A stretch of DNA of 38,788 bases from Candidatus Vogelbacteria bacterium RIFOXYD1_FULL_44_32. GTDB lineage: Bacteria > Patescibacteriota > Minisyncoccia > Phycocordibacterales > XYD1-FULL-46-19. The DNA lies in assembly GCA_001823065.1 (NCBI GenBank), contig MHTJ01000002.1, forward strand, positions 117,532 to 156,319. Direction: 5' to 3'. Under the pieces are notes generated by a model. It was not told where the DNA came from and ran no database searches. It saw only the letters and a list, made by a program, of their open reading frames with translations. The position numbers and the translations under genes are program-made. Within the stretch, counting starts at the first letter, position 1, and every line of letters starts with the position of its first letter. Positions 26,862 to 36,806 of the stretch are shown here, in pieces.

Positions 26862-26987
26862 AGCCAAATTTCGTTGCCGGTGTTTGGATGCTGGAACCTT
26901 GCACAGCGCGACGGCGCGAGCAGAGCAAAAACTTAACAAAGTTTTATGTGTGTTCCAGCAGACAAATACCAAGAAAGAAATTTGGCT
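26862..26987. repeat. Palindrome-embedded hairpin cassette, copy 1
   Basis: 36-nt imperfect inverted arms (26862-26897/26952-26987) around a 54-nt cassette 26898-26951 that starts with CTTGCACAGCGCGACGGCGCGAGCAGAG. Confidence 0.9.
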
Positions 26988-27830: not shown

Positions 27831-27892
27831 CAAAAAGGCACTTTTTGTGCCCCGTGAGCGAGACAACTGCTTGTCTCGCGTCAGGAGTCGAA
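27811..27892. repeat. 27-bp perfect inverted repeat of the tRNA-Lys 3' end, interrupted in one arm by a 25-nt hairpin
   Basis: Left arm 27811-27837; right arm 27841-27856 plus 27882-27892, split by AGCGAGACAACTGCTTGTCTCGCGT (27857-27881). Confidence 0.93.
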
Positions 27893-27931
27893 AGGACTTT
27901 CAATGTTTGTGAGCGAAGAGCAAACAAACCT

Positions 27932-29100: not shown

Positions 29101-29105
29101 AAGCC

Positions 29106-29140
29106 CAAAATATTGGACACCGAGTGTCCAATATTTTTTA
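29106..29140. terminator. Bidirectional terminator-like hairpin
   Basis: AAAATATTGGACAC-cga-GTGTCCAATATTTTTT. Confidence 0.8.
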
Positions 29141-30034: not shown

Positions 30035-30901
30035 TTACTTCTGACACTTCTCACAAAAGTGAGTTCCGCGTCCTGCGTGTTTTATTTTAGATATTTTAGT
30101 GCCACAGGTTGTGCAGGGTAGATTGGCACGGCCGTAAACATTTAAGTATTTTACAAAACCACCTTTCTCGCCCGTTGAGGTAACATAATTGCGGGCCGAG
30201 GTACCTTTCATTTTGATGGAGAGTTTTAGGACGGTGAGCATGGATTTATATAATTTTTCAATTTCACTTTTTGAAAGACTGAAAATTTTCCGAGTGGGGA
30301 GTACTTTAGCGAGGAAGCTAGCTTCGTCTATATAAATATTACCCATACCAGCGATGAGGTGCTGGTCGAAGAGGGTTTGCTTGATAGTCCGATTTGGATA
30401 CTTGGTGAGAAGCTCGGTAAAAATATTGAGGGTAAACTTTTTATCCAAAGGTTCAGCTCCGTGCGGGTCCAAAATGATATTTTTTTCCGCCTCGGTTACT
30501 AACTTGAGCCAGCCAAATTTGCGCAGGTCGTTGAAATAGAGGGTAGAGCCGTCGGTAAATTTAAACTCGGCCTGGGTATAGTTGTTTGGCAGATTTCTGC
30601 CGCCGTCACGCTGGGGGTGGCCGCCAACTACAGCTTTGCCAGTTTTGGGAACGAATATAAGCTGGCCGGTCATCTTGAGGTGAACTAGGAAAAAGTGTTT
30701 ACCCGAGAGGGAAATGACCACAATCTTGGCTCGGCGGGATACGCCCAAGACTTTTTTCTTGCTAATATTTTGGGCAAAGTCTTGGGCCGAAAGTGGGAGG
30801 ACCATTTTAGGCACGTGAACAACCACCGACTTGAAAGTCTTGCCACTGATCGCTTTATTTAATTGTCGGGAGACAGTTTCTACCTCTGGTAATTCAGGCA
30901 T
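30035..30901 (-). CDS. mutM: Formamidopyrimidine-DNA glycosylase
   Basis: MPELPEVETVSRQLNKAI, IYIDEASFLAKVLPTR, C-terminal zinc finger CTTCGTKISKIKHAGRGTHFCEKCQK. Confidence 0.97.
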   Translation of the reverse strand: MPELPEVETVSRQLNKAISGKTFKSVVVHVPKMVLPLSAQDFAQNISKKKVLGVSRRAKIVVISLSGKHFFLVHLKMTGQLIFVPKTGKAVVGGHPQRDGGRNLPNNYTQAEFKFTDGSTLYFNDLRKFGWLKLVTEAEKNIILDPHGAEPLDKKFTLNIFTELLTKYPNRTIKQTLFDQHLIAGMGNIYIDEASFLAKVLPTRKIFSLSKSEIEKLYKSMLTVLKLSIKMKGTSARNYVTSTGEKGGFVKYLNVYGRANLPCTTCGTKISKIKHAGRGTHFCEKCQK

Positions 30902-30933
30902 GTTCGTTCTAATTATTAGCTGTTACTCATTCG

Positions 30934-31025
30934 CCAATACTGTTTGAAATACACGAATATTTTTCTGCTGAAAAATTTCTCTGCTCGCGCCGTCGCGCTG
31001 TGCAAGGTATTTCAAACAGTGTTGG
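30934..31025. repeat. Palindrome-embedded hairpin cassette, copy 2
   Basis: 19-nt arms CCAATACTGTTTGAAATAC/GTATTTCAAACAGTGTTGG (30934-30952/31007-31025; one mismatch) around a 54-nt cassette 30953-31006 in reverse orientation, with the identical 28-nt core. Confidence 0.93.
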
Positions 31026-31026
31026 T

Positions 31027-32319
31027 TCATTCGTCCACTTTGACTTTTTGTTGAAGGAAAGAAGTTAATTCACTACGGGCCACCTCCGCATCGCTCCACG
31101 GTTCTTTAGCGCCATTGGCCCGCATAATATATGGGTCAGTGCCTTTGCCGGTGATGATAATGACACTGCCAGTTTCGGCTTTCTCGATAGCTTTTCTAAT
31201 CGCCAGCCGGCGCTCCATAATTATTTCTTTCGGGGTGTGGGTGACACCAGATGCAACTTGGGTGGCAATTTGTTCGGGGTTTTCGTCGTAAGGGTCTTCG
31301 TCGGTGATAATAACTAGGCTGGCGTATTTGTCGGCGAGACCGCCCATAATTTGTCGGCGGTCGCTGTCGCGGCCACCACCGGTGCCACCCAAGACGGCAA
31401 TGATTTTATGGTCTTTGTAAATCTCGTAAACTTTTTGGAGCGAGTCGGCCGTGTGGGCGTAGTCGACAATGACTTTAAAATCTTGGAGACGGGCCAGTGT
31501 CGGGTCGGTGGGGGTGACTTGCTCCAGCCGGCCGGGGATACCAGAAAATTTTTCTATGGCTTGTTTTATTTTATCAGGACCAATGTTTTGACTTTTGGCG
31601 TAGGTAATCGCGAGCAGAATATTGTAAAGATTAAATTCACCCACGAGCTTGGTCTGGATCTTTTGGCCAGCGTAGGTGAAAAAGAGGCCGTCGACAAGGA
31701 GGGCATGGGGCTCGGCCTCGGCGAGGTGGCTCTCTAGCTTGGTCGCAATATTTATTTTCCGAAAATCATCAAGTGCTGGGTCGTCGCCATTGGTGACCAA
31801 AACTTTATTGGGTTTCCATGATGTGGCTAAAGCATGCGCGATTTTTAGTTTAGCTTCTTTATATTTGGCGAAAGAGCCGTGCGACTCAATATGCTCGGGT
31901 GAGAGGTTGGTGACCAAGAGAGCGTCGAGGGCAATAAATTTGTGGCGGAATTGTTTGGTGGCTTCGGAGCTGATTTCCAAAACGATATAGTCGCAATGGG
32001 CATCAACGGCTTCCCGAATTAGTTTTTGCAGGGTAAACCGTCCCGGGGTGGTCATTTTTAGGCGGTTTGGCCGGCTTTCGTTGCCGATTTTGAAACGCAC
32101 GGTCGAAACGAGGGCCGTTTTAAAACCAGCTTCTTCTAAAATCGCGCTCACGAGCTCGGTGGTGCTCGACTTGCCCTTGGTGCCAGTGACCGCTACTACT
32201 TTGATATGGCGGGCGGGGAAGCGGTAAATGAGGGCGCCAAGGAGGGCTAGTTTCCAGTGATAAATACTAAAAACCCAAGTGGGAACTATTTTTTTGATGA
32301 TATTTTTGATTTTTCCCAT
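31027..32319 (-). CDS. murE: MurE-like Mur ligase
   Basis: AVTGTKGKSSTTELVSAILEEAG, LEISSEATKQFRHKFIALDALLVTNLSPEHIESHGS, VDYAHTADSLQKVYE, ITDEDPYDENPEQIATQV. Confidence 0.92.
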   Translation of the reverse strand: MGKIKNIIKKIVPTWVFSIYHWKLALLGALIYRFPARHIKVVAVTGTKGKSSTTELVSAILEEAGFKTALVSTVRFKIGNESRPNRLKMTTPGRFTLQKLIREAVDAHCDYIVLEISSEATKQFRHKFIALDALLVTNLSPEHIESHGSFAKYKEAKLKIAHALATSWKPNKVLVTNGDDPALDDFRKINIATKLESHLAEAEPHALLVDGLFFTYAGQKIQTKLVGEFNLYNILLAITYAKSQNIGPDKIKQAIEKFSGIPGRLEQVTPTDPTLARLQDFKVIVDYAHTADSLQKVYEIYKDHKIIAVLGGTGGGRDSDRRQIMGGLADKYASLVIITDEDPYDENPEQIATQVASGVTHTPKEIIMERRLAIRKAIEKAETGSVIIITGKGTDPYIMRANGAKEPWSDAEVARSELTSFLQQKVKVDE

Positions 32320-36445: not shown

Positions 36446-36806
36446 TTCCACTGTTTGATTTCCTACCTGCCGGTAGGTCGGGTGAAGTGAGACAAACAGT
36501 TCTTACCGGCAGGGATCTTTTCCTACGGGAACAGTACAGGCTTCACATCTCATTTCGCTGAATACAGCTTATTACGATAAGTTCAGCCTTTTCGATTCCT
36601 GACGCGAGCAAAGCAGTTTGCTCGCTCCGGGGGCACACTCCGCTCTGCTTCGTGTGCCCCCGGCAGGACGCTTAGCTATCTCACCCTTTGGAAACCCTCG
36701 GTTTTCCAACGAGCTTCGCTCTGCCTTCCTCCACGAGAAAACTACAGTTTTCCCGACCCCTTTCGAGTTCGATTCCTGCCGGGTAGACACACTCATTGCA
36801 TTCGTG
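36446..36806. repeat. Nested palindrome array on the 3' side of tRNA-Arg
   Basis: Contains CCTACC-tgcc-GGTAGG (36462-36477), TTCGATTCCTG+25-nt hairpin+CCGGGGGCACAC...GTGTGCCCCCGG-CAGGA (36591-36668), TTGGAAACC-type and GAAAAC-tgta-GTTTTC hairpins, GTTCGATTCCTGCCGGG (36767-36783). Confidence 0.88.

Follow-up and report, generated by a model that had tools for sequence, protein, structure and literature searches.

The window, as we call the whole 38,788-nt stretch of DNA analysed here, contains two palindromic elements, one in the gap downstream of xthA (copy 1) and one in the gap between murE and fpg/mutM (copy 2). Both hold the 28-nt core that the preliminary description had reported from the two sites, as an exact match at 26898-26925 on the plus strand and at 30979-31006 on the minus strand; in shuffled sequence no 28-mer match is expected, even with three mismatches. 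The arms of copy 1 pair in the three blocks that had been named (-57.2 kcal/mol, z = -7.8) and are, as was also noted then, unrelated in sequence to those of copy 2, whose fold is calculated at -37.0 kcal/mol (z = -7.0). The 19-bp palindrome of copy 2 is abutted on both sides by the 7-bp direct repeat CGAATGA.

In both copies, the 54-nt cassette consists of two hairpins that are separated by a single A and closed by the arms. This arrangement is a three-way junction with fixed unpaired letters, in which the arms constitute stem P1, the 28-nt core stem P2 and the remaining hairpin stem P3. Most letters of P3 differ from one copy to the other, yet both hairpins have the same shape: 10 bp, with an A bulged out ahead of the final 3 bp, and an ARCA loop, followed by GT. 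The cassette had been described as a conserved 28-nt core followed by 26 further nucleotides; the core is indeed conserved in sequence, but the 26 nt after it are conserved as well, in structure. Elsewhere in the window, a 53-nt inverted pair (27846-27898 and 36585-36637, 83% complementary), rich in pieces of tRNA 3′ ends, adjoins the window's two tRNA genes.

Table 1 Coordinates of the two window copies and their parts
Feature	Position	Strand	Context or detail	Basis
Copy 1, full palindromic element	26862-26987	+	xthA (exonuclease III) upstream, holA-like (weak) gene downstream	fold
Copy 1, arms	26862-26897 / 26952-26987		internal loops present	
Copy 1, 74-nt three-way-junction unit	26888-26961	+	R2 match, 83.8 bits	
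Copy 1, hairpin P2 (most of the 28-nt core)	26898-26923	+	bulged T, RCA/GA internal loop, GACG loop	
Copy 1, hairpin P3	26925-26949	+	10 bp, AACA loop, bulged A	
Copy 2, full palindrome	30934-31025	-	gap murE - fpg/mutM	
Copy 2, 19-bp arms	31007-31025 and 30934-30952			
Copy 2, 74-nt three-way-junction unit	30943-31016	-	R2 match, 93.7 bits	
CGAATGA direct repeat, murE side of copy 2	31027-31033	-	includes murE stop codon	
CGAATGA direct repeat, mutM side of copy 2	30927-30933	-		

A dispersed family with a conserved fold

A search for the 28-mer, as the preliminary description had proposed, returned only the two window copies from 16 genomes of the family, both exactly and with three mismatches, and a pattern scan of 85,488 species genomes added one further exact core, which lies upstream of rpsB in the genome of Candidatus Taylorbacteria UBA11359 (G113 in our genome numbering). 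Because such searches are too narrow, we used covariance models in their place, one built from the two window copies alone (R1) and a refined one built from 109 copies (R2). At E ≤ 0.1, R1 finds 12 copies in the 705-kb source genome, about ten of which the exact 28-mer misses, and of the order's 198 genomes it matches 92, with up to 24 copies in a genome and, for many matches, E values under 1e-10. R2 matches 34 of 384 genomes across the phylum, those outside the order mostly belonging to other classes. Copy numbers of this family, which we term the T element, range from zero to dozens between related genomes. Two copies in the source genome (L040, G000:C4:55023-55097 and 55151-55224) lie about 50 bp apart in opposite orientation and represent different sub-types, with GCAGAG and GCTCGAG cores, and a weak match of 28 bits (L046, G000:C3:233961-234030) follows a tRNA-like 5′ sequence (GGGCCCTTAGCTTAGTTGGTAGAG).

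Phages, plasmids and viral contigs gave no matches beyond chance. The family has no match in Rfam 15, where at or above the gathering score the window yields its two tRNAs only; the 28-mer belongs to no known non-coding RNA family, in line with the preliminary description. A match to MIR7993 on the other strand was discarded as a generic long hairpin far below the cut-off. A review of prokaryotic MITEs mentions Patescibacteria, IS982 and cruciforms nowhere (PMC10969869). The open-licence literature yielded no paper that treats these subjects in Patescibacteria or the Candidate Phyla Radiation, and with this scope the novelty of the family is provisional.

Across the 109 copies, double-sided changes occur in 27 of the 28 pairs, and standard pairs make up 96.1% of pair cells. 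Double-change cells number 794, whereas shuffles give 217 and slid controls no more than 178. The alignment, fitted with a model of this same structure, is biased in its favour, although P3, long and covarying, has almost no gaps. Most unpaired letters, by contrast, are about 90-100% fixed, including the bulged T (98%), the GA (97-98%), the junction A (100%) and junction G (98%), the bulged A (95%), the G-A-C-G of the P2 loop (92/74/91/96%) and the A-G-C-A loop (100/90/90/97%). Conservation is therefore not one of sequence only, as had been assumed: structure persists while nearly all paired letters change. The cassette is kept, as described, but what genomes have in common is a longer unit of about 74 nt that takes in roughly 10 bp of each arm. 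P1 pairs well over some 18-19 bp and shows a preference for TTT/AAA at a distance of 8-10 bp from the junction. Further out, genomes differ: P1 may have GAGCGA on either side, loops of the GTCGAA/GAGAAAAG type, or long stems that pair perfectly.

Insertion sites, arms and ends

The empty sites that the preliminary description had suggested looking for in relatives exist. The copy 1 site, between xthA and the next gene, is empty in three genomes (G015, G012 and G009), and in a fourth, from the same genus (G014), the element is present but inverted. The copy 2 site is empty in G007, and in G012 it holds an element with nearly the same P3 and wholly different outer arms that are still palindromic. 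At the same site, G014 (L217:1280-1720, 20-bp arms) and G015 (L218:1200-1960) have a small GIY-YIG nuclease gene flanked by palindromic arms; these loci correspond to window positions 30900-31060. Inverted repeats of about 20 bp also surround a minority of the other GIY-YIG genes of the order (L225, L252, L247 and L256). We considered the GIY-YIG nuclease as an autonomous partner, but its genes occur in 184 of 198 genomes and such arms in a minority only, and it stays a lead.

Comparison of further orthologous sites shows how cassette and arms behave. At L105, in G033, the sister genome G113 has a clean empty site from which both are missing. At L120, substitutions between G028 and G110 are paired, both arms being altered in concert, and at L123 the same two genomes are both filled, with the cassette inverted, the arms different and the right flank about 97% identical. 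Every copy in G151 and G085 has its own near-perfect stem of 20-42 bp, and in our reading of the sequences some stems include inverted copies of gene ends, for instance the end of fusA and, from the rplL reading frame, nine letters that take in the stop codon.

T elements are short, non-coding and multi-copy and have terminal inverted repeats, the first features by which a MITE is recognised. In G038, about 15 copies are near-identical including their arms and terminate in TGAATTACGAAACTC, and G019 has a similar set; arms common to all copies, which would mark an ordinary dispersed repeat, are thus found inside G038 and not across the family. Among 40 elements with IS982-type ends in G038 and G019, with and without the T tip, 17 are bordered, at a constant offset from their ends, by a 7-bp direct repeat without mismatches, compared with 0.4% of shuffled partners; copies with such ends therefore carry 7-bp target duplications. 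In G038, the autonomous partner of these copies is a 973-bp element bounded by the same ends (L129), whose transposase gene is IS982-like (Pfam DDE_Tnp_1_3; its NCBIfam IS982 score of 104 bits is below the cut-off of 130). Bare 40-49-bp palindromes of these ends with almost no centre also occur in G038 and G195 (L135, L136, L137, L138 and L146); they are minimal MITEs, some with 7-bp duplications. IS982-type ends are found in a minority of T elements, and the two window copies do not have TGAATTACGAAACTC. Copy 2, with its CGAATGA repeats, has a 7-bp direct repeat as well. In the remaining copies, target duplications show at most a slight excess, barely above chance, and most copies have no linked transposase; a search for an autonomous partner of the other arm types, including those of the window copies, found none.

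The Y1 transposase was rejected as the driver: its gene is present in 57 of 92 genomes with the element and in 50 of 106 without, so that the association is weak, and it is absent from several genomes rich in copies. The source genome's own Y1 (RAYT-like) gene, at C4:61873, is flanked by another repeat, not by the T element as expected of the REP of a RAYT. A 34-nt repeat at window position 29104-29137, which is also found on both sides of this sole Y1 gene of the genome (G000:C4:61653-61686 and 62366-62395), looks like its REP sequence.

Constraint on the tip and rival explanations

We interpret the T element as a mobile palindrome of Patescibacteria that is non-autonomous and MITE-like, with a three-way junction as its conserved T-shaped tip and with arms that would be homogenised by template switching, a reading to which we assign a probability of about 0.5. 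Mobility is supported by the empty sites, which show that insertions are polymorphic between relatives, by the 7-bp duplications and the autonomous partner of the IS982-type copies, and by the CGAATGA repeats around copy 2. Its main rivals are a role as RNA and a cassette that targets loops. Strong covariation with fixed unpaired letters is the usual mark of RNA, and the element could be a structured RNA that has multiplied, as a terminator tip, a 3′ UTR element or a small RNA gene, its covariation then being due to selection for the fold of the RNA. In line with this, some copies sit at gene ends that have ordinary terminators in relatives, such as rplL and rplI/rpmA, and G028 has A-tract/T-tract stems; several copies in G028 and G151 occupy intrinsic-terminator positions, making a role in transcription possible. 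However, the 109 copies show no preferred gene orientation (++ 24, -- 28, -+ 20, +- 19, with 14 within ORFs and 4 at contig edges, based on crude ORF calls), many of them lie in divergent gaps, and copy number varies from zero to dozens among related genomes. Non-Watson-Crick cells comprise 62 G-U and 24 A-C among about 2,950. The excess of G-U over A-C is small (p about 5e-5, or 0.02 omitting one uncertain pair), and G-U accounts for about 2% of pairs, compared with 6% in 46 tRNAs from the same loci (63 G-U and 0 A-C in 981 pairs, where the tRNA finder itself may exclude A-C). The lack of orientation preference and a G-U excess smaller than that of tRNA argue against an ordinary mRNA element, and the pairing pattern favours a constraint on DNA, or copying-based correction, over an ordinary RNA helix. 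We thus regard the RNA explanation as unlikely, although some RNA or strand-specific selection is possible, since a mild strand-specific signal persists in the excess of G-U over A-C.

The preliminary description placed the cassette in the loop of a long palindrome, and a related explanation is that the 54-74-nt cassette alone is mobile and enters the loops of pre-existing palindromes, terminators or MITEs, the arms being host DNA. In G028, the inner 10 bp (TTTGAACTGT/ACAGTTCAAA) are indeed nearly common while the outer stems are unlike one another and terminator-like; the rplL site is a plain terminator in G085 and contains the element in G151; and other cores too sit inside IS982-type palindromes. 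A universal model of host terminator plus cassette suits G028 and G151 but is contradicted by the empty site at L105, where the arms are absent together with the cassette, and in the roughly 15 copies of G038 cassette and common arms moved as one unit, so insertion into a host palindrome fails as a general rule. Moreover, the source genome and G012 have copy 2 in common with unrelated arms, so that differences between arms need no separate insertions. We consider this explanation quite improbable. Least probable of all would be an ordinary IS982-type MITE with the T tip as a passenger sequence amplified by chance: the ends and 7-bp duplications in G038, and likewise in G019, are those of an IS982-like element, but most genomes with the tip have arms unrelated to such ends, arms are individual to each copy in G151 and G085, and a passenger would not hold its unpaired letters near-fixed across many families.

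Proposed mechanism and relation to known elements

For the mobile palindrome that we favour, the tip would act as DNA, extruded as a hairpin or cruciform and read on one strand, which would explain the near-strict Watson-Crick pairing, the fixed unpaired letters and the indifference to gene orientation. Between insertions, DNA polymerase may switch template at the palindrome, copying one arm onto the other and flipping the spacer. The arms would then stay perfect while drifting and could extend into neighbouring gene ends, and the cassette would invert. The inverted cassettes at copy 1 (G014) and L123 (G110) and the concerted arm changes at copy 2 (G012) and L120 (G110) support this process, as do the stems that run into the coding ends of rplL and fusA, and spacer inversion and arm homogenisation are known outcomes of template switching in other organisms (PMC8604942). 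As nothing but the tip is constant, either selection or a protein that binds it must keep it so. Our guess is that its likeliest job would be recognition as folded DNA by a recombinase or transposase, in the manner of attC sites or REPs. A more tentative and rather doubtful proposition is that the T element is a novel type of mobile cassette that is recognised through the fold of its DNA, and that fold-back copying of local DNA rewrites its arms wherever it lies.

ERIC- and NEMIS-type intergenic palindromes are comparable bacterial elements. Like bacterial MITEs such as QMITE2 of Coxiella (PMC10969869), T elements are short, non-coding, palindromic, intergenic and multi-copy, and for some copies the likeness extends to duplications of 7 bp and to an IS whose ends are the same; they differ in that they have a conserved, branched fold at the centre, in which changes are compensatory, their arms are often unique to each copy and a single core occurs in elements with unrelated ends. 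Integron attC sites likewise keep structure over sequence, with fixed unpaired bases and folding of one strand (PMC3053210), but attC is a single bulged hairpin and the T element a three-way junction. The REP and BIME sequences of RAYT transposases are also dispersed extragenic hairpins in either orientation (PMC3733652), whereas the T element is branched and longer, and many copy-rich genomes have no Y1 transposase. Quasipalindrome correction by template switching likewise yields identical arms and an inverted spacer, but its spacers are a few bases long and not conserved (PMC8604942), in contrast to the conserved fold that serves as spacer here.

Patescibacteria have very small genomes, yet many hold up to dozens of T elements, apparently undescribed until now; these are frequently located at the ends of genes, in some cases at a position that a terminator occupies in a relative. 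The covariance model makes the element searchable in thousands of genomes, and with the element one can test, in a natural setting, whether DNA mobility is guided by structure and whether template switching rewrites palindromes. Any protein that has the junction as its target would be a hitherto unknown reader of DNA structure, and if the cassette is recognised by its fold, it would be a bacterial mobile element defined by shape rather than by the sequences of its ends.
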